Assembly (NCBI RefSeq): GCF_003012935.1
Contig: NZ_PUDR01000005.1
Coordinates: forward strand, 186,001 to 250,000
DNA from: Pannonibacter carbonis
GTDB lineage: Bacteria; Pseudomonadota; Alphaproteobacteria; Rhizobiales; Stappiaceae
Direction: 5' to 3'
DNA length: 64,000 nt
Shown: positions 193 through 49,938 of the stretch, piece after piece
Layout of the letters: each line of letters opens with the position of its first letter
Numbering within the stretch: position 1 is the stretch's first letter
The notes under the pieces: model-generated
What the model was told of the DNA's origin: nothing
The model's database searches: none
The model's input: only the letters and a program-made list of their open reading frames with translations
Program-made: the position numbers and the translations under genes

Positions 193-216
193 TCCGTTCG
201 GAACGGGTTGGCGCGC
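171..216 (+). promoter_or_regulatory. Attenuator pause/anti-terminator hairpin
   Basis: GCGCGCCA at 171-178 pairs with TGGCGCGC at 209-216, and inside it GAACGG at 182-187 pairs with CCGTTC at 194-199 around a 6-nt loop. The left arm overlaps the last leader-peptide codons, so a ribosome stalled on the Leu/Ile/Val run or finishing at the TGA would treat this fold differently. Confidence 0.6.
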
Positions 217-221
217 AGACA

Positions 222-243
222 GGGCTCCTTCGGAGCCCTTTTT
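222..243 (+). terminator. Attenuator terminator ahead of ilvB
   Basis: GGGCTCC (222-228), a three-base loop, GGAGCCC (232-238) and then TTTTT (239-243) form a compact intrinsic terminator. It lies 90 bp before the ilvB start and just behind the leader peptide, so it would cut off ilvBH transcription unless relieved. Confidence 0.75.
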
Positions 244-333
244 CGTTACAGCCCCAAGCAAAGCCCCCGCAAACCCGATCCACCAGCAAGACCCCGAGCA
301 AGACCCAAGGGCCAAACGCAAGGAAATGACGCG

Positions 334-2109
334 ATGACACGGGAGATGACCGGAGCCGAAATGGTGCTCCAGGCGCTGAAAGACCAGGGCGTTCAACATG
401 TCTTCGGCTATCCCGGCGGCGCTGTGCTGCCGATCTATGACGAGATCATCCAGCAGGACGACATCCAGCACATTCTGGTGCGCCACGAACAGGGCGCCGG
501 CCATGCGGCCGAAGGCTACGCCCGGTCCACCGGCAAGCCGGGCGTTGTTCTCGTCACCTCCGGTCCCGGTGCGACCAACATGGTCACCGCACTGACCGAT
601 GCGATGCTCGATTCCATCCCGCTCGTCTGCCTGACCGGCCAGGTTCCGACACATCTGATCGGCACGGACGCCTTCCAGGAATGCGACACCGTCGGCATCA
701 CGCGCAACTGCACCAAGCACAACTGGCTGGTTCGCGACGTCAACGACCTGCCGCGCATCCTGCACGAGGCCTTCTATGTCGCAACCTCGGGCCGGCCCGG
801 CCCGGTTGTCGTCGACATTCCGAAGGATGTGCAGTTCGCGACCGGCACATACCAGAGCCCGTCGACAACGCCGGCCGCCGCCCACAAGAGCTACCGGCCG
901 CAGGTCAAGGGTGATATCAGCGCCATCCGCCAAGCCATCGAACTGATGGCAAACGCCAAGAAGCCTGTGTTCTACACCGGCGGCGGCGTCATCAACTCGG
1001 GCCCGCAGGCCAGCATGCTGCTGCGTGAACTGGTCCAACTCACCGGCTTCCCTATCACCTCGACCCTGATGGGCCTTGGCGCCTATCCGGCGAGCGGCGA
1101 CAACTGGCTCGGCATGCTTGGCATGCACGGCACCTACGAAGCCAACATGGCGATGCATGATTGCGACGTCATGATCTGCGTCGGCGCCCGCTTTGACGAC
1201 CGCATCACCGGCCGCATCGATGCCTTCGCCCCGAACGCCCGCAAAATCCACATCGACATCGACCCGTCATCGATCAACAAGATCGTCAAGGTCGACGTGC
1301 CGATCATCGGCGACGTCGGTCATGTCCTGGAGGATCTCGTTCGCCTCTGGCGGACCTCCGGCAACAAGGCCGATCCTTCGGCGATGAAGGCCTGGTGGGG
1401 TCAGATCAACCTCTGGCGCGCGCGCAACTGCCTTGCCTACATGCCGAACAGCGATGTGATCATGCCGCAATACGCCCTGCAGCGCCTCGCCGCGCTCACC
1501 AAGGGCCGCGACACCTACATCTCCACCGAAGTCGGCCAGCACCAGATGTGGGCAGCCCAGTATCTCGGCTTTGAATCGCCGAACCACTGGCTCACCTCCG
1601 GCGGCCTTGGCACCATGGGCTACGGCCTGCCCGCCATTCTCGGCGCACAGGTCGCCCATCCGGATGCGCTCTGCGTCTGCGTGGCTGGTGACGCCTCGGT
1701 TCTGATGAACATGCAGGAAATGTCGACGGCGGTGCAGTTTGGCCTGCCGATCAAGATCTTCATCCTGAACAATCAGTACATGGGCATGGTGCGCCAGTGG
1801 CAGCAGCTGCTGCATGGCAACCGCCTGTCGCATTCCTACATGGAAAGCCTGCCGGACTTCGTGAAGCTGGCTGAGGCCTATGGCGGCGTCGGCTTCCGCG
1901 TCGACAAGCCGGGCGAACTGGATGACGCCATCCTCGAGATGATCGCGGTCAACCGTCCGGTGCTGTTCGATTGCCGCGTGGCAAACCTTGCCAACTGCTT
2001 CCCGATGATTCCGTCGGGCAAGGCGCATAACGAAATGCTGCTTCCGGATGAGGCCAACGACGAAGCCGTCGCCAACGCCATTTCCGCCGAAGGCAAGGCG
2101 CTGGTCTGA
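334..2109 (+). CDS. ilvB: Acetolactate synthase, large (catalytic) subunit
   Basis: This is the ThDP-dependent enzyme that condenses two pyruvates to 2-acetolactate (valine/leucine) or pyruvate with 2-oxobutyrate (isoleucine). The 591-residue protein has the family length and its three domains: N-terminal PYR domain with the catalytic glutamate in VRHEQGAGHAAEGYAR (Glu52), a central domain, and a C-terminal ThDP/Mg site beginning GDASVLMNMQEMSTA near residue 453. The ATG at 334 was chosen because AAGGA lies just before it and MTREMTGAEMVLQAL is the usual N-terminus; a TTG frame extension to 208 would run through the attenuator terminator. ilvH follows after 12 bp with its own Shine-Dalgarno site, so the two subunits are made together. 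Confidence 0.97.
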   Translation: MTREMTGAEMVLQALKDQGVQHVFGYPGGAVLPIYDEIIQQDDIQHILVRHEQGAGHAAEGYARSTGKPGVVLVTSGPGATNMVTALTDAMLDSIPLVCLTGQVPTHLIGTDAFQECDTVGITRNCTKHNWLVRDVNDLPRILHEAFYVATSGRPGPVVVDIPKDVQFATGTYQSPSTTPAAAHKSYRPQVKGDISAIRQAIELMANAKKPVFYTGGGVINSGPQASMLLRELVQLTGFPITSTLMGLGAYPASGDNWLGMLGMHGTYEANMAMHDCDVMICVGARFDDRITGRIDAFAPNARKIHIDIDPSSINKIVKVDVPIIGDVGHVLEDLVRLWRTSGNKADPSAMKAWWGQINLWRARNCLAYMPNSDVIMPQYALQRLAALTKGRDTYISTEVGQHQMWAAQYLGFESPNHWLTSGGLGTMGYGLPAILGAQVAHPDALCVCVAGDASVLMNMQEMSTAVQFGLPIKIFILNNQYMGMVRQWQQLLHGNRLSHSYMESLPDFVKLAEAYGGVGFRVDKPGELDDAILEMIAVNRPVLFDCRVANLANCFPMIPSGKAHNEMLLPDEANDEAVANAISAEGKALV

Positions 2110-2121
2110 GGAGCGAGATAC

Positions 2122-2694
2122 ATGAACGCACAGAACGTCAACGCGCCTTCGGCCTATTTCATGGCCGAAGTCAGCGACAAGACCGAGACCCATACCCTAT
2201 CGCTGCTGGTCGATAACGAACCCGGCGTGCTGGCCCGGGTCATCGGCCTTTTCTCGGGCCGCGGCTACAACATCGACAGCCTGACCGTCTCGGAAACCGA
2301 GCACGAGGCGCACCTGTCGCGCATCACCATCGTGACCACCGGCACGCCGATGGTAATCGAGCAGATCCGCCATCAGCTTGACCGGCTGGTCCCCGTGCAC
2401 CGCGTAACCGACCTGACGGTTCAAGCCCGCCTCAACAGCATCGACGCCCCGCTGGAGCGGGAGCTGGCGCTGGTGAAGGTTGCGGGCCATGGTGAAAAGC
2501 GTCTCGAGGCCCTGCGCCTTGCCGATGCCTTCCGCGCCACAGTGATCGATGCGACGACCGAACATTTCGTCTTCGAAATCACGGGCCGCACCTCCAAAAT
2601 CGAGCAGTTCATCCAGATCATGAAGCCGCTTGGCCTGGTGGAAGTCTCCCGCACAGGGGTGGCCGCCGTCCAGCGCGGACCGGAAAGCCTGTAA
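2122..2694 (+). CDS. ilvH: Acetolactate synthase, small regulatory subunit
   Basis: The regulatory partner of IlvB raises its activity and confers feedback inhibition by valine. The 190-residue length suits an IlvH-type subunit. It has an N-terminal ACT domain (HTLSLLVDNEPGVLARVIGLF, about residues 24-45, onward to ~98), where the effector amino acid binds, and a C-terminal domain from about residue 100. GAGGAGCGAG sits ahead of the ATG, 12 bp after ilvB. A strong terminator 37 bp downstream closes the ilvBH transcript. Confidence 0.96.
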   Translation: MNAQNVNAPSAYFMAEVSDKTETHTLSLLVDNEPGVLARVIGLFSGRGYNIDSLTVSETEHEAHLSRITIVTTGTPMVIEQIRHQLDRLVPVHRVTDLTVQARLNSIDAPLERELALVKVAGHGEKRLEALRLADAFRATVIDATTEHFVFEITGRTSKIEQFIQIMKPLGLVEVSRTGVAAVQRGPESL

Positions 2695-2731
2695 GAAAAG
2701 TCCGTCTGCTCAATGTCTTGACGCCTTTAGA

Positions 2732-2766
2732 CGCCCGCCCGCGCAGTTTTCGCAGGCGGGCGTTTT
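2732..2766 (+). terminator. Intrinsic terminator of ilvBH
   Basis: CGCCCGCC (2732-2739) pairs with GGCGGGCG (2755-2762), with further inner pairing, followed by TTTT (2763-2766). It separates ilvBH from serA; the 187 bp up to serA must carry a serA promoter, which I could not pinpoint. Confidence 0.8.
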
Positions 2767-2953
2767 CGTGACTGGCAATAGCCTGTTGCCGCCGCGCAAG
2801 CTCGTTTGCGGCATATGGTACTTCAGAACCGAAGTCCCATAGACGGATGGCGGCAGAGGCAATATAGGAAGCTCCGACTCCGGCCGGGCCCCCTCCTGCC
2901 CCCGCCGCGCCACATCCGGACGCTGACCAAAGCAGTCCCACCAGGAAGGCTAG

Positions 2954-4204
2954 ATGCCCATGAGCAACGGTTTGTCCCGCCCGAAGAACCAGATCCGCTG
3001 GCTGCTGCTGGAAGGCATCGCCTCCACGGCCAAGGACGTTCTGGACGCAAGCGGCTACGAAAACGTCGAGATGCTGACCAAGGCTCTGGACAAGGATGCC
3101 CTGATCGAGGCGCTGAAGGGCGTGCATGTGGTGGGTATCCGCTCGCGCACCCAGCTGACGCGCGACGTGATCGAGGCGGCCGGCACGCTGGTTGCCATCG
3201 GCTGCTTCTCGGTCGGCACCAACCAGGTTGATCTGGCCGCAGCGCGTGAGCGCGGCATCCCGGTGTTCAACGCCCCCTTCTCAAACACACGCTCGGTCGC
3301 AGAGCTGACAATTGCCGAAATCGTCATGCTGATGCGTGGCGTGTTTGAAAAGTCCTCCGCAGCTCACGCGGGTCGCTGGATGAAAACCGCTACCGGCTCC
3401 CGCGAAGTGCGCGGCAAGACACTCGGCATCGTCGGCTATGGCAACATCGGCTCGCAGCTGGCGGTTCTGGCCGAAGCCGTTGGCATGACGGTCATCTACT
3501 ACGACAAGACCGACAAGCTGCGGCACGGCAACGCGATGCCGGTCGACACGCTGGACGAGTTGCTGAGCCGCTCGGATGTGGTCTCGCTGCATGTCCCCGA
3601 CACGGCGGAGACGCGCAACATGATCCGCGCTGAGCAGCTGGCGAAAATGAAGCCCGGCAGTTTCCTGATCAACAATGCGCGCGGCAAGGTCATCGACATC
3701 GACGCCCTGACGGCGGCACTGAAGACCCAGCACATTGCCGGTGCCGCGATCGACGTGTTCCCGAGCGAGCCGAAGGGCAATTCGGACGAGTTCATCAGCC
3801 CGCTGCGCGGCCTGCCCAATGTCATCCTGACGCCGCATGTCGGCGGCTCCACTGAAGAGGCACAGGAGCGCATCGGCGAGGAAGTCTCCCGCCGTCTGGT
3901 CGAGTATTCCGACGTCGGCTCGACACTCGGTGCGGTCAACTTCCCGCAGGTTCAGCTGCCGCGCGGCACCGATGCGACCCGTTTCATCCAGGTGCACCGC
4001 AATGTGCCGGGCGCCATGCGCGCCCTGAACGACCTGTTCGCCCGCCACAACCTCAACATCCACGCCCAGTACATGCAGACGGTTCAGGAAACCGGCTATG
4101 TGGTGCTGGATGTCGATGGCAAGGTGGAGAACAGCGTCGAGATCCTTGAGGAAATCCGCCAGCTCCCGGGAACCGTTCGCGCCCGCCTGCTCAACCGCGT
4201 GTGA
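2954..4204 (+). CDS. serA: D-3-phosphoglycerate dehydrogenase, short (E. coli-like) form with ACT domain
   Basis: The enzyme oxidises 3-phosphoglycerate to 3-phosphohydroxypyruvate, the first step of serine synthesis. The 416 residues match the ~410-residue E. coli type. Visible are the substrate segment GCFSVGTNQVDL, the NAD-binding GYGNIG (161-166), catalytic Arg243 (NARGK), Glu272 (FPSEP) and His295 (TPHVGG), and a C-terminal ACT domain from about residue 340 ending RARLLNRV, which is the serine-sensing part in the E. coli enzyme. Many alphaproteobacteria also have a longer SerA with an extra substrate-binding domain; this is not that form. pdxJ follows on the same strand after 118 bp. Erythronate-4-phosphate dehydrogenase (PdxB) is a relative, but the ACT domain speaks for SerA. 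Confidence 0.93.
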   Translation: MPMSNGLSRPKNQIRWLLLEGIASTAKDVLDASGYENVEMLTKALDKDALIEALKGVHVVGIRSRTQLTRDVIEAAGTLVAIGCFSVGTNQVDLAAARERGIPVFNAPFSNTRSVAELTIAEIVMLMRGVFEKSSAAHAGRWMKTATGSREVRGKTLGIVGYGNIGSQLAVLAEAVGMTVIYYDKTDKLRHGNAMPVDTLDELLSRSDVVSLHVPDTAETRNMIRAEQLAKMKPGSFLINNARGKVIDIDALTAALKTQHIAGAAIDVFPSEPKGNSDEFISPLRGLPNVILTPHVGGSTEEAQERIGEEVSRRLVEYSDVGSTLGAVNFPQVQLPRGTDATRFIQVHRNVPGAMRALNDLFARHNLNIHAQYMQTVQETGYVVLDVDGKVENSVEILEEIRQLPGTVRARLLNRV

Positions 4205-4322
4205 AATTGCCTCATCGGCAAGCACAGGGAAGCGGTTGACAGCACCGGGAATTTCGTCACGCTAGGCAAAGGGGCGGTCTGTTGGCTGCCCCTTCCCGTC
4301 TTGTTTTCCGGAAATCCCGCCC

Positions 4323-5072
4323 ATGACCGCCTCGCGCCTGTCCGTGAATGTGAATGCCATCGCCATGCTGCGCAATCGCCGGGACCTGCCCTGGCCAAGC
4401 GTCACCGGCCTCGCGGCCATCGCTCTGGAGGCTGGCGCAAAGGGCATCACCGTTCATCCGCGCCCCGACGAGCGCCATATCCGCAAGACGGACGTGTTCG
4501 AGCTTGCCGAACTGATCGAGGACCGGTTCCCGCACAAGGAACTGTGCCTGGAAGGCTACCCCTCGCCTGACTTCCTCGACCTCGTCGAGAAGGCGCGGCC
4601 AGACCAGGTGCTGTTCGTGCCAGATGCGGCGGACCAGCAGACTTCCGACCACGGCTGGCGCTTTGATCCGGCCAGCAAGGCGCTGCTGAAGGAAGCCATT
4701 ACCGCTGCCCGCGACGCCTCCGTGACTGTGTCCCTTTTCCTGGATCCGGAACCGGCACTGGCCGCGGAAGCTGCTGCGATCGGCGCGGAGCGGATCGAGA
4801 TTTACACCGGCCCCTATGGCGGCTGCTACGACAATGAGGCTGCCGCCCAGCGCGAACTGGACAAGATCGTCGCGACGGCGGAAGCCGCCCGGGCTGCCGG
4901 CCTTGGTGTCAACGCCGGACATGACCTCACCGTCGAGAACATCCCCGCCCTGATCAAGCGTGCGCCCTTCATCCGCGAAATGTCGATTGGCCACGGCTTT
5001 ACCGCCGACGCCCTGATCCACGGCTTCGCCGAAAGCGTCCGCCGCTTCCGCAGGTCAATGGGCGAGATTTGA
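4323..5072 (+). CDS. pdxJ: Pyridoxine 5'-phosphate synthase
   Basis: PdxJ closes the pyridine ring, joining 1-deoxyxylulose 5-phosphate with 3-amino-2-oxopropyl phosphate in the DXP-dependent vitamin B6 route. The 249-residue TIM-barrel protein shows the family signatures RLSVNVNAIAMLRN, AGAKGITVHPRPDERHIR with the conserved His, and GLGVNAGHDLT near the C-terminus. The wording VHPRPDERHI and SDHGWRF puts it nearer a divergent branch of PdxJ (also seen in Bacteroidetes) than the common proteobacterial VHLREDRRHI type; this is from memory of the families. It follows serA on the same strand; both pathways share phosphoserine-type chemistry, so the pairing is sensible. Confidence 0.92.
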   Translation: MTASRLSVNVNAIAMLRNRRDLPWPSVTGLAAIALEAGAKGITVHPRPDERHIRKTDVFELAELIEDRFPHKELCLEGYPSPDFLDLVEKARPDQVLFVPDAADQQTSDHGWRFDPASKALLKEAITAARDASVTVSLFLDPEPALAAEAAAIGAERIEIYTGPYGGCYDNEAAAQRELDKIVATAEAARAAGLGVNAGHDLTVENIPALIKRAPFIREMSIGHGFTADALIHGFAESVRRFRRSMGEI

Positions 5073-5082
5073 TAGAGGCGAC

Positions 5083-5113
5083 AGACCATCTGGCGGAACA
5101 AGCCGGATGGTCT
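5083..5113 (+). terminator. Hairpin between convergent pdxJ and DUF4087 gene
   Basis: AGACCATC (5083-5090) pairs with GATGGTCT (5106-5113). It sits just after the pdxJ stop and just before the stop of the convergent gene. There is no clear T-run on either side, so it may be a weak or bidirectional terminator. Confidence 0.4.
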
Positions 5114-5117
5114 CATC

Positions 5118-5486
5118 TCACTCGACTGGCGGCAGGCTTTTGTCCTTGGCGCATTGGGCCAGTTTGCCCTGCTTGAAGGAATAGACCGCCGTGATGTGCC
5201 TTTGGCCGCCCGATACCTCGGTTTCGACCTTCATGCAGCCGCAGGCGTAACCATAGTTGCCGTTGACGGCCTTGTAGTCACCGGCCGAAATGTCGCCGAT
5301 GTTTTCCATGCCCAGCGCTTCCCGGTCCGAGCCCTGGGTGGCCAGGATCCAGTCGCCGTCGCGGTCGGTCAGCCACCAGTTGCCCGGCGTCGGATTGACG
5401 ACCCAACCGCAGCGGTTCTCCGGCGCGGCCTCGGCAGCTGCTAAGGCAAGGCAAAGTGGCAGGGCGGCAAGAAGCAGTCGGCGCAT
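5118..5486 (-). CDS. Small exported DUF4087-like protein
   Basis: A 122-residue protein begins with a clear signal peptide (MRRLLLAALPLCLALAAAEA) and continues with NRCGWVVNPTPGNWWLTDRDGDW, the recognisable DUF4087 opening, then a Cys-containing YACGCMKVE. Four cysteines in the mature part suggest disulphides in the periplasm. The function of the family is not known to me. It lies 16 bp after the gene at 5503-5946 and is very likely co-transcribed with it. Confidence 0.8.
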   Translation of the reverse strand: MRRLLLAALPLCLALAAAEAAPENRCGWVVNPTPGNWWLTDRDGDWILATQGSDREALGMENIGDISAGDYKAVNGNYGYACGCMKVETEVSGGQRHITAVYSFKQGKLAQCAKDKSLPPVE

Positions 5487-5502
5487 GTCAGCTCTCCGGT
5501 TT

Positions 5503-5946
5503 TCAGTTGTTCACGGACACCAGAGCCCAATGGCTCTTGCTGCAGGACTGGTTGTCACACACCGGCGCAATCCAGACCGCGCCATTGCCGATTGATACGC
5601 CGTCAGACGAGACGAACAGCTCCGTGTAGTCGGCAGACGCGACCAGCTCCTTGGTCGCCTCGGTGATCAGCCGCGCATAGTTCTTCTCGAACTCCTTGGC
5701 CGATTTGACATCAAAGGATGTGCCGTTGTTGTTCACCGGCAGCGGGAAGGCGGTCAGCTTTGCGACATCCCTGGCCGTTCCGGTCACCAGTGCCCGGCGC
5801 AGCTCGTTGAGGAACGGATCAAGCCCGGCCGCGTCGCCCAGAAGGTTCTCGACTTCGGCGTAGATCTCTTCCTCGCTCGCGGCCTGCACGGGGCCTGACA
5901 GGAGGGGAAACAGCACGACAGCAACGGCAAGCAGGAAACGCTTCAT
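5503..5946 (-). CDS. Exported hypothetical protein
   Basis: The 147-residue protein has a signal peptide (MKRFLLAVAVVLFPLLSG, cleavage probably after PVQAA) and no domain I recognise. Two cysteines near the C-terminus (PVCDNQSCSKSHW) may form a disulphide. The ATG at 5946 is preferred over a longer frame to 6057 because GGAG precedes it and a secretion signal starts right there. It is followed after 16 bp by the DUF4087 gene, so two small periplasmic proteins form one transcript. Confidence 0.75.
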   Translation of the reverse strand: MKRFLLAVAVVLFPLLSGPVQAASEEEIYAEVENLLGDAAGLDPFLNELRRALVTGTARDVAKLTAFPLPVNNNGTSFDVKSAKEFEKNYARLITEATKELVASADYTELFVSSDGVSIGNGAVWIAPVCDNQSCSKSHWALVSVNN

Positions 5947-6068
5947 CAGGGGGCTCCAGACTTCAGGATGTCTGGAACCATATCCGAGCCGCGCGATAAC
6001 CGCTTGGCGAAGTTTGGGGGCATCGGACCGCGTCCACATCGGGCTTGATGGCCCCAATCAGAGCCCGA

Positions 6069-12539: not shown

Positions 12540-13445
12540 ATGTCCATCCGTCCCGTCCGCCAGATCAGCGGCACAACCCCGACCCTGGAAGGTGCCGGCG
12601 TCCGCCTCGACCGCGTCTTCGGCTTCAGCGATCCGGAGCTGACCGATCCGTTCCTGATGATGGACGATTTCCGCAATGACAACCCGCGCGACTATGCCGC
12701 CGGCTTTCCCTGGCATCCGCACCGGGGCATCGAGACCATTACCTATGTCTTGGCCGGTACCGTCGACCACACCGACAGCCTCGGCAACAATGGCAGCCTC
12801 GGTGCTGGCGACGTACAGTGGATGACCGCCGGGCGCGGCATTCTGCATCAGGAAATGCCGAAGGGCGATGCGCGCGGCCGCATGCATGGCTTCCAGCTTT
12901 GGGCCAACCTGCCCTCGCAGCTGAAGATGACCGCGCCGCGCTACCAGGACGTGACGTCAAAGGACATCCCGGTGATCCAGGACGACGACGGCACCATCGT
13001 GCGCGTCATCTGCGGCGAGTTCTGGGGCAAGCGCGGCCCGGTCGACGGCATCGCCGCCGAGCCGCAATATCTCGACATCACCATTCCGCCCGGCCGCGCC
13101 AAGCGCCTGCCCGTCGACACGCGCCGCCAGGCCTTCGCCTATATCTTCGAGGGCGCCGGCAAGTTCGCCGACGCCTCCAAGCCCTTCGGCGTGCTGACGG
13201 AAAAGGAACTCGACAACGAGGAACTCTACATCCGCGACGAGACCGGCGACCGCACGCTGGTGATCTTCGGCGCGGGCGACGAGATCGTCGTGCAGGCCGG
13301 CGAACAGGGCATGCGCTTCCTCCTCGTCTCCGGCGCCCCCATCCGCGAACCCATCGCCTGGCACGGCCCCATCGTCATGAACACCCGCGAGGAACTCATC
13401 CAGGCCGTCACCGAACTGCGCAACGGAACTTTTATCAAAGGGTGA
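12540..13445 (+). CDS. Pirin family protein
   Basis: A 301-residue bicupin. The N-terminal cupin carries the metal ligands in WHPHRGIETITYVL and ILHQEMP (two His, then His and Glu), and the C-terminal pirin domain covers residues ~175-290. Bacterial pirins act as quercetinases or redox-linked regulators; which applies is not readable here. GAAGGGAGA precedes the ATG. Oddity: the last ~22 codons are present a second time at 14053-14117, after a low-GC insert, with more GC-rich third positions in that second copy. The present 3' end may therefore have been supplied by the insert. Confidence 0.92.
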   Translation: MSIRPVRQISGTTPTLEGAGVRLDRVFGFSDPELTDPFLMMDDFRNDNPRDYAAGFPWHPHRGIETITYVLAGTVDHTDSLGNNGSLGAGDVQWMTAGRGILHQEMPKGDARGRMHGFQLWANLPSQLKMTAPRYQDVTSKDIPVIQDDDGTIVRVICGEFWGKRGPVDGIAAEPQYLDITIPPGRAKRLPVDTRRQAFAYIFEGAGKFADASKPFGVLTEKELDNEELYIRDETGDRTLVIFGAGDEIVVQAGEQGMRFLLVSGAPIREPIAWHGPIVMNTREELIQAVTELRNGTFIKG

Positions 13446-13455
13446 GGGTTTGGGG
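13381..13455 (+). repeat. Direct repeat, copy 1 (pirin 3' end)
   Basis: A 75-bp segment covering the last codons, the stop and ten bases after pirin. It matches 14053-14127 with six differences counted by eye, including a block of 43 identical bases (13384-13426 against 14056-14098). Confidence 0.9.
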
Positions 13456-13541
13456 AGCCCGAACGGCCAAGTCCAGCTGCCTTTGCTCTCTGGTTAGTCC
13501 GGGGCAAGGGCGGTTGACAGTCGAATAATGTCTTTGTACGA

Positions 13542-13952
13542 CTATTGTGTACTGTTCAAAATCTCGGTCACATCGCGCCAGACGATATTGTCCGGATAGG
13601 TGGCCAGACCCAAGAATGCCGTGAATGCGTTCACAACATCATCGATAAACAAGATTTCGTCTGGGTTTACGGTTATCTGACCGCCGCCGAACACCAAGAC
13701 TTGCGGCCCTTCAAAAGGCACTTTCGGCACGTCGTAGTGCGCTCGATAGTGCTTCTGATCAGATTGGCTGCGCATTTCGAGGACACATGTGAACCGTCCC
13801 CCAGCAACCTGAATGTACGAACCATCCGGCCTCGTAACGATAGCAAAAGACTGAGAGCCATAGCTCTTCAAAGCCCTGAGAGATTTTTCAATAGCCCCAA
13901 AGTTACTCACCTCTTTAGGCGCCTTGTTCTCAACGTCTAGAATTGCCTTCAT
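13542..13952 (-). CDS. Hypothetical low-GC protein, immunity-protein-like
   Basis: A 136-residue soluble protein without signal or membrane segment. The gene has visibly lower GC content than its neighbours (about half A+T) and lies inside the segment bracketed by the duplicated pirin 3' end. The pattern SFAIVTRPDGSYIQVAGG, then HYRAHYDVP, then FGGGQITVNPDEILFIDDVVNAF and WRDVTEIL resembles immunity proteins of polymorphic toxin systems (Imm1-like arrangement); this is an impression from residue pattern, not a proven match. No toxin gene is adjacent. ATG at 13952 has no clear ribosome-binding site; a TTG lies one codon earlier. The gene is real by its codon pattern and isolation, but its function is open. 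Confidence 0.6.
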   Translation of the reverse strand: MKAILDVENKAPKEVSNFGAIEKSLRALKSYGSQSFAIVTRPDGSYIQVAGGRFTCVLEMRSQSDQKHYRAHYDVPKVPFEGPQVLVFGGGQITVNPDEILFIDDVVNAFTAFLGLATYPDNIVWRDVTEILNSTQ

Positions 13953-14052
13953 CAAAAATTCGCTGTGATGCTACCAACAAGACATCTTCACTCAACAAAA
14001 TAGCCAGTCATAGCCAGAGACGCAATTTTACTCCCAAAAACGAACCCAATTG

Positions 14053-14127
14053 ACGCCCGCGAGGAACTCATCCAGGCCGTCACCGAACTGCGCAACGGGA
14101 CGTTTACCAAGGGGTGAGGGGTTGGGG
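14053..14127 (+). repeat. Direct repeat, copy 2 (orphan pirin 3' end)
   Basis: This copy would encode AREELIQAVTELRNGTFTKG and a TGA, in the same frame as the pirin C-terminus, but it has no gene in front of it. Third positions are more GC-rich than in copy 1, so this copy looks like the original end of pirin left behind when the insert entered. Confidence 0.88.
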
Positions 14128-14144
14128 CAAAAATCCGGTCATGA

Positions 14145-14160
14145 CATCGTCAGGACGATG
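14145..14160. promoter_or_regulatory. Perfect inverted repeat upstream of tacA (operator candidate)
   Basis: CATCGTC, a 2-bp spacer, then GACGATG form a perfect palindrome 46 bp before the antitoxin start. Antitoxins of the RHH/TacA class repress their own operon by binding such sites, so this is the natural operator candidate. Confidence 0.5.
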
Positions 14161-14206
14161 AGCTAGTCTAACAGGCAAGAATTATGCGCCCGCAAAGGTT
14201 TGGCTG

Positions 14207-14479
14207 ATGTCATCGCCCGCAAGGACAGAGAAGCTGGAAATGCGCCTCTCGCCGGAAGCCAAGCGGCTTCTGCGGGAGGCAGCAGAGCTGCGCCACAAGA
14301 GCATGTCGGAGTTCGTTCTCGACAGCGCCCTGGCCGAAGCCGAGGCGACACTGTTGGATCGCCGCATCATTCAGCTGAACGACGTAGACTGGACCGCCTT
14401 TCTCGCGGCCCTGGATGGCCCACCTCGGCGCGACGACCGGCTCGAACAGCTTCTGACGTCCCCAAGTGTCTTCGACTGA
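14207..14479 (+). CDS. DUF1778 (TacA-type) antitoxin
   Basis: A 90-residue protein with an N-terminal ribbon-helix-helix (KLEMRLSPEAKRLLREAAEL, about 8-27, then SMSEFVLDSAL) and a C-terminal arm (LNDVDWTAFLAALDGPP) that in TacA-type antitoxins wraps and inhibits the acetyltransferase toxin. The toxin gene begins 3 bp after the stop. An inverted repeat upstream fits autoregulation. It follows directly after the pirin-linked insert. Confidence 0.9.
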   Translation: MSSPARTEKLEMRLSPEAKRLLREAAELRHKSMSEFVLDSALAEAEATLLDRRIIQLNDVDWTAFLAALDGPPRRDDRLEQLLTSPSVFD

Positions 14480-14482
14480 GGC

Positions 14483-14998
14483 ATGACGAGCCCGAACAAG
14501 CCCAAAATCGAGAAACTGACTGCCCTGCACGATCTTGGCAGCTTCGATTGCGGCTCGGCGGCGCTGAATAGCTTTCTCCAGAACCATGCCTTGGGCAATC
14601 AGTCTGCTGGCAGTGCCCAAACCTATCTCGCCCTGATGAACGGCAGTGTCGTGGGCTTCTACAGCCTTGCTGTCGGGCAGATCGAGACCGCAGCCGCGCC
14701 GGATCGCCTGCGTAAAGGGCTTCCACGGCATCCGGTCCCGATCATGTTGCTGGCGCGCCTCGCCATCGACCGCCGTTGGCAGGGGCAGCGTCTCGGTTCG
14801 GGCCTGCTCAAGGATGCGCTGCTCAGGACGCTGCGCGCTGCCGACATCGCAGGCATTCGCGCTATCGTGGTCCACGCCAAGGACGAACCCGCCCGCGCCT
14901 TCTACACGGCTTTCGGCTTCGTCCCGTTCGAAAGCGCGCCGTTTGTCCTCTACCGCCTCATCAAGGATATCCGGGTGTTGAGCGGCAGCGGCCACTGA
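14483..14998 (+). CDS. GNAT toxin of the TacT type
   Basis: A 171-residue GNAT acetyltransferase. TacT-family toxins acetylate the amino group of aminoacyl-tRNA and so block translation. Seen here are the opening FDCGSAALNSFLQNHA, typical of these toxins, MLLARLAIDRRWQGQRLGSGLL with the acetyl-CoA loop Q-G-Q-R-L-G, and the catalytic-region AFYTAFGFVPF with the conserved Tyr. It is paired with the DUF1778 antitoxin 3 bp upstream. All key residues seem intact, so the module is probably functional. Confidence 0.9.
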   Translation: MTSPNKPKIEKLTALHDLGSFDCGSAALNSFLQNHALGNQSAGSAQTYLALMNGSVVGFYSLAVGQIETAAAPDRLRKGLPRHPVPIMLLARLAIDRRWQGQRLGSGLLKDALLRTLRAADIAGIRAIVVHAKDEPARAFYTAFGFVPFESAPFVLYRLIKDIRVLSGSGH

Positions 14999-49653: not shown

Positions 49654-49938
49654 ATGTATCACGTCTACATTCTCGCCAGTCGCATGCATGGAACGCTCTA
49701 TGTCGGCGTGACGAATGATCTTCCACGCCGCGTGGACGAGCACAGGCAAGGTGTGGGCTCACGCTTCACACGGGAGCATGGCGTCTCACGGCTCGTCTTC
49801 TACGAAGGCTTCGAGGATGTGGAGGCCGCAATCGCTGCCGAAAAGCGGTTGAAGCGATGGCATCGGGCCTGGAAGGTTCAGCTGGTCGAGCGGACCAATC
49901 CGCTCTGGAAGGACCTCTCTCTTGAGCTGAACATGTAA
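49654..49938 (+). CDS. GIY-YIG nuclease-like protein
   Basis: A 94-residue stand-alone GIY-YIG domain: YHVYILASRMHGTLYVGVTN carries the Y-I-L/Y-V-G signature, the helix has the conserved Arg (LPRRVDEH), and FYEGFEDVEAAIAAEKRLKRW has the expected Glu. Single-domain members are common and mostly of unknown role. AGGGATCC precedes the ATG. It lies between uvrD and a pair of long palindromes, with no integrase around. Confidence 0.88.
   Translation: MYHVYILASRMHGTLYVGVTNDLPRRVDEHRQGVGSRFTREHGVSRLVFYEGFEDVEAAIAAEKRLKRWHRAWKVQLVERTNPLWKDLSLELNM

Follow-up and report, generated by a model that had tools for sequence, protein, structure and literature searches.

A foreign segment of about 0.6 kb carrying a single gene has been inserted into the 3′ end of the pirin gene of Pannonibacter carbonis, a conclusion that is well supported by comparison with other genomes of the genus. 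The site lies in a 64,000-nt stretch of DNA (the window, whose positions serve as coordinates throughout) located on a 322,666 bp contig (C29) of a 4.78 Mb genome assembled in 33 contigs (G000). The pirin gene (12540–13445, + strand) is intact and codes for a 301 aa protein with matches to Pfam Pirin (E 2.2e-34) and Pirin_C (E 3.1e-24). Its end belongs to a 75-nt segment (13381–13455, + strand; the left, attL-like copy) that recurs on the same strand at 14053–14127 (the right, orphan, attR-like copy) with a start-to-start spacing of 672 and 69 identical positions out of 75 (92%). The mismatches are found at 13383/14055, 13427/14099, 13430/14102, 13435/14107, 13439/14111 and 13449/14121; the first and the second of them delimit 43 nt without any difference (13384–13426, + strand). 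The copies bracket 597 bp (13456–14052, not assigned to a strand) whose GC content of 0.491 contrasts with 0.634 for the contig, an equally low value being found in 0.17% of its 598-bp windows. The sole plausible gene of the insert is encoded by the reverse strand (13542–13955). A sequence-only reading of the window had described a 75-bp pirin end recurring 672 bp downstream with six differences, around a lower-GC segment of about 600 bp with one reverse-strand gene, and all of this holds at the exact coordinates given here. So does its view that the intact gene uses an AT-richer end while a GC-richer orphan copy remains behind (GC of 0.573 in the pirin copy and 0.653 in the orphan one).

Four other genomes of the genus (G001 to G004) were compared. 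In two of them, G003 and G004, the site is empty: a single pirin end is followed directly by the sequence that comes after the orphan copy in the window. This is the single-copy site that the sequence-only reading had proposed to look for. The arrangement is not fixed among relatives and the composition of the insert is not native, the two points on which that reading had staked its interpretation. Identity to G000 is 97.6% on both sides of the site in G003, and 92% and 86% in G004. G001 and G002 have a pirin gene with one copy of the end and lack the insert protein. At positions 13427, 13430, 13439 and 13449, all within the last 29 nt of the left copy, it is the orphan copy that matches G003 and G004 and the pirin copy that does not; at 14055 and 14107 it is the orphan copy that is the odd one out. 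Because the orphan copy agrees with the two congeners at the four sites where pirin departs from them, the functional gene ends in a carried, foreign 3′ end, its native end being displaced downstream as the right side of the orphan copy. Three of the changes in the pirin copy fall in coding sequence; read from the sequence, they are synonymous and affect only the third base of Gly, Thr and Lys codons. The left tail differs from G003 at 4 positions over 32 nt, compared with about 4 over the 421 nt upstream (p 0.0012, with counts entered by hand).

If the insert were ancestral and G003 and G004 had lost it through recombination between its flanking repeats, the outcome would be just the single-copy site observed. 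We judge this history very improbable: insertion in the G000 lineage requires one event, ancestral presence requires loss in both congeners in spite of the closeness of G000 and G003, and the insert protein is also absent from G001 and G002.

The origin of the repeat itself was approached from several sides. A simple tandem duplication was rejected because the insert resembles nothing in the flanks of the empty site and has a foreign composition. An insertion sequence or transposon was also rejected, as neither a transposase match nor a pair of inverted repeats at the two ends of the insert was found. The insert is present once in the genome. A scan of contig C29 for repeats of at least 35 nt, at least 80% identity and a spacing of 200–6000 returned 16 rows, and none of the other short pairs read in detail was a copied gene end; the pairs 27603/31766, 248649/248852 and 310758/311691 consist either of G-rich repeats between genes or of ATP-binding motifs of paralogues. 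A stricter scan of the contig for copied gene ends returned the pirin repeat as the only case. The insertion site has no tRNA or Rfam feature, and a promoter scan there was negative. DNA folding of both repeat copies and both insert flanks gave nothing exceeding shuffled sequences. One terminator-like site was found, below the shuffle count. Between pirin and the convergent, probable immunity gene of the insert lies an imperfect inverted repeat (13471–13518, not assigned to a strand), perhaps a terminator, although it scores no better than shuffles (z -1.48).

A more elaborate local origin would involve a DNA break at which fill-in or template switching produced two copies of the pirin end while a stray foreign fragment was captured, the copies diverging later. 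This would account for the repeat without any enzyme on the insert, which indeed resembles a fragment of a toxin-immunity locus. Copies made in this way should be identical at first, yet the left tail has accumulated its 4 changes in 32 nt in the copy under selection, against about 1% upstream. Ku (PF02735) is absent from all five genomes of the genus (the control search was positive in 1 of 14 genomes, that of Bacillus subtilis), and Ku end joining is therefore unlikely. A similar structure at the same gene in another genus (genome G063, see below) is a further difficulty, and we regard local duplication as improbable.

The reading that we favor, tentatively and with somewhat less than even confidence, is the entry of a circle by one crossover within a pirin-end sequence that it carried, in the manner of a cis-mobilizable element (CIME), with a recombinase that was lost or acts from elsewhere. 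A circular molecule bearing the immunity gene and a pirin-end-like sequence would enter by a single crossover within the 43 identical nt. The left copy would then be a hybrid of native 5′ side and carried 3′ side with the reading frame kept, and the right copy would have a carried 5′ side and a native 3′ side. The remnant would look like a CIME, with att-like flanks and no recombinase gene, the enzyme having been lost or supplied from elsewhere. Integrative elements at gene ends behave in this way, and such a crossover would leave the features seen here: the 43-nt identity, an abrupt edge on the left and a tail that diverges without altering the protein.

Several observations weigh against this reading. 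No Phage_integrase (PF00589) gene is found on contig C29, where serine recombinases were not searched for, and this bears out the earlier remark that no integrase is present; five are encoded elsewhere in the genome, on contigs C9, C11, C28, C32 and C33. A profile of uncontrolled sensitivity, built from 21 integrases of the genus, detected no integrase after pirin in 40 loci of the family, and the exact pirin-end pattern had no match in viral contigs. The inserts of the window and of G063 resemble each other neither in sequence nor in cargo. That of the window gives the impression of a slice cut from a toxin-immunity locus and not of a unit with its own ends, and the empty sites could, as discussed above, stem from recombination between the repeats were the insert ancestral. 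The 43-nt identity, finally, suits ordinary homologous recombination as well.

This last point leads to a reading that we consider unlikely but worth serious attention, in which a single illegitimate joining event in an unsampled relative created the arrangement, which then reached G000 by RecA recombination through the pirin ends, without dedicated mobility. A perfect identity of 43 nt is enough for RecA exchange, and recombination with such a relative should leave the same junctions. Moreover, 12 nt of 3′ flank in the left tail are typical only of this allele group. The neighborhood has a history of exchange: between about 12.6 and 14.9 kb, G004 and the window differ at 1–10 positions per 100 bp, but outside this interval at 13–36 per 100 bp, so that pirin and the genes following it already form an interspecies tract. 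What speaks against homologous capture is that divergence from G003 is not raised just upstream of the repeat, and that another genus provides a second, independent case at this gene end.

The genes concerned, outside the insert, code for a TacA-like antitoxin (14207–14479) and a GNAT acetyltransferase (14483–14998), both on the + strand (14207–14998 together), and directly follow pirin in G003 and G004. The pair is found after pirin in G000, G003 and G004 but not in G001 or G002. Pirin and TacA/GNAT (about 12540–14990) form a tract that has passed between species as one piece.

The gene of the insert (13542–13955, − strand) codes for 137 aa if initiated at the TTG codon at 13955, or 136 aa from the ATG at 13952. 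Its product has no match in Pfam, PADLOC, NCBIfam or PHROGs; the window protein does not reach the cut-off of Pfam Imm1 (PF14430; 0 families), which is listed for two of the seven alignment members with a best E of 0.02. The predicted fold is similar to that of DddI (PDB 6u08), with 10% sequence identity. Relatives of the protein are encoded directly after a toxin domain in 18 of 47 loci. Judging from the predicted fold and from the gene neighborhoods of these relatives, the insert probably carries an orphan immunity gene, directed against a toxin of the contact-dependent (filamentous-haemagglutinin-type) systems, and its product would bind and block the toxin of an attacking neighbor. The toxins linked to the homologues are not DddA deaminases; their terminal domain looks like a PD-(D/E)xK nuclease, without a profile match. 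No cognate toxin was detected in the five genomes of the genus, a search run without positive control that shows little. A possible vestige of the last codons of a toxin precedes the immunity gene (13952–13981, − strand), where LVGSITANF followed by a stop codon can be aligned with VVGNITIYLP in the register found in homologues. In a fixed-register test, run after the match had been seen, 39, 21, 28 and 70 of 20000 shuffles did as well for 9, 10, 12 and 14 codons, while a free-register test was not significant (396 of 1000 shuffles as good); the vestige is suggestive only.

The claim that the segment is a minimal mobile cassette fared unevenly. A foreign insert, an empty site, a replacement end, the lack of an integrase found at the site and one other case stand on its side. 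Mobility is conjectural: besides the single genomic copy, the insert DNA was not found in plasmids and its protein was not found in phage records or viral contigs. Among 201 relatives the insert DNA gave only partial or very short matches outside its own genome. A pair of direct repeats flanks the immunity homologue within 2.5 kb in 10 of the 47 loci; these comprise palindromic repeats (Pseudomonas loci L141, L143 and L144) and duplicated coding or intergenic stretches, and in none is the repeat a pirin end. In the three Pseudomonas loci the homologues have palindromic repeats on either side, for example AAATAGGGGTCAGACCACG...GGTCTGACCCC, with several copies in L144, and are possible repeat-borne immunity cassettes. 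Further immunity homologues flanked by direct repeats of 50–500 nt are found in L134, L136, L146, L167 and L132.

A search for other cassettes with duplicated pirin ends, which the sequence-only reading had suggested, yielded one, with a different cargo. The 105-bp pirin end was matched in 62 of 87 genomes of the family Stappiaceae, and 40 of the other 61 pirin loci were read together with the following 13 kb, as far as the contig extended. A degenerate pirin-end pattern occurs in 57 of the 87 genomes, in two copies only in G000 and G063; in an order-wide sample that did not include G063 it occurs in 27 of 397 genomes, in two copies only in G000. G063 belongs to another genus; a 48-bp part of its pirin end is repeated 665 bp downstream with 94% identity. 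The two copies enclose a 617 bp insert whose reverse strand codes for a 96-aa GIY-YIG protein (domain E 1.1e-17). As the gene carried is different, what recurs is a site and an architecture, not the same cassette. Over the 40 loci and contig C29 (868,406 bp), exactly two gene ends are copied 250–3000 bp away, both of them pirin (G000 and G063). With the index case left out, the recurrence amounts to 1 of 40 other pirin loci against no other scanned gene (p about 0.05, under an assumed and not counted density of one gene per kb), so that pirin as a preferred site is a borderline proposition. G063 may be a coincidence, since GIY-YIG genes are found downstream of pirin without duplication in G065 and G041 and there are 2–8 such genes per genome elsewhere. 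In G046, G068 and G031 (L081, L077 and L066) the interval from pirin to a GNAT/NUDIX gene is taken up by further large insertions: a helicase-like gene of 1160 aa, a segment of 8.6 kb and a gene of 317 aa.

The domain carried by G063 raises the alternative of gene-end replacement driven by a site-specific nuclease, which would cut the pirin 3′ end and have it repaired by copying a donor with a replacement end; the nuclease would reside in the insert in G063, and would have acted in trans or been lost in the window. The anatomy of the Glomus and Allomyces mitochondrial hybrids, as described in the available excerpts of PMC3630166, is the same: an in-frame foreign end, mostly synonymous changes, the native end displaced downstream and a small gene in between. 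On the other hand, no nuclease is encoded in the window insert, the GIY-YIG genes of G065 and G041 are unaccompanied by a duplication, such genes also occur elsewhere, and the left copy of G063 has no foreign signature and no close empty site for comparison (nearest pirin 83.5%). We hold this alternative to be quite unlikely. A broader proposal is that the pirin 3′ end is a recurrent landing site in Stappiaceae for single-gene, recombinase-free cassettes of about 0.6 kb with their own replacement end. They would be the equivalent, in bacteria, of the gene hybrids of fungal mitochondria, spreading an immunity gene here and, in G063, a GIY-YIG nuclease that may open the site; taken as a whole, this remains doubtful.

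Small GIY-YIG genes drew attention on their own account. One is encoded in the window (49654–49932, + strand; PF01541 E 1.4e-16) and others at loci L217–L245 and in L071 (5650–5937). Repeat pairs flank these genes in 19 of 28 loci as compared to 2 of 200 random stretches, and CGTC-tagged hairpins are present on both sides in 7 of 28 loci as compared to 21 of 1000 and 20 of about 1000. CGTC repetitive extragenic palindromic sequences are presented in the accessible part of PMC3733652 as having no dedicated transposase, which makes the small GIY-YIG nuclease a candidate enzyme for them.

The travel of single orphan immunity genes without their toxins is an open point, and the window case is one caught at a gene end. 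In the field of recombinase-associated acquired interbacterial defence (rAID), the mechanism of biogenesis is called an area of active research in the available section of PMC12247911. The empty site is known to the base and the junctions are thus directly testable; the second case at pirin makes a site-specific process testable as well. Should pirin ends prove to be a shared landing site, they provide a marker by which such cassettes, and the enzyme moving them, could be located. If homologous capture is correct, the window still offers a clean example of an immunity gene gained without harm to the target gene.

No description of the present pirin-end arrangement was among the 8 of 42 literature matches listed. 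A pirin gene as target of site-specific integration has a precedent in PhiC31, which integrates into the Streptomyces pirin homologue SCO3798 (PMC5937489, as excerpted); unlike in the window, a serine integrase is at work, the target gene is inactivated and the gene end is not repaired. The transposon for contact-dependent inhibition (CDI) was dismissed as a parallel, since in the part of PMC6350997 at hand it is moved by IS2-like elements, unlike the pirin arrangement. With rAID systems the window shares a toxin-less orphan immunity gene with 30–60% identity to toxin-linked relatives (PMC12247911, same section). It differs in being a single gene and not an array of co-oriented orphan immunity genes, in the lack of an adjoining tyrosine recombinase (no PF00589 on C29) and in belonging to Alphaproteobacteria and not Bacteroidales. 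The resemblance to DddI concerns the predicted fold, in contrast to the low sequence identity and to linked toxins other than the DddA deaminase. The fungal mitochondrial hybrids (Allomyces atp6; Glomus atp6, atp9, cox2 and nad3) have, in the excerpts of PMC3630166, a foreign C-terminal end in frame, the native end downstream and a small open reading frame (ORF) in between; mobile endonuclease ORFs are involved, and a nuclease can produce this anatomy. The window pirin gene likewise has an in-frame foreign end and a displaced native one, but lies on a bacterial chromosome, and its ORF is an immunity gene and not an endonuclease, the GIY-YIG domain being found only in the G063 insert. The excerpt of PMC5704250 defines CIMEs by flanking direct repeats at a gene 3′ end, a working end supplied by the element and the disappearance of integration and transfer genes. 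The window insert is far smaller (0.6 kb), and no integrative and conjugative element (ICE), integrative and mobilizable element (IME) or integrase for the pirin site was found (40 of 61 other family genomes with the pirin end, uncontrolled profile; viral contigs, exact pattern). The likeness to CIMEs and other gene-end integrative elements lies in an insert devoid of integration and transfer genes, with one ORF of note, and in a pair of related att-like direct repeats, the target gene being completed by one of them.
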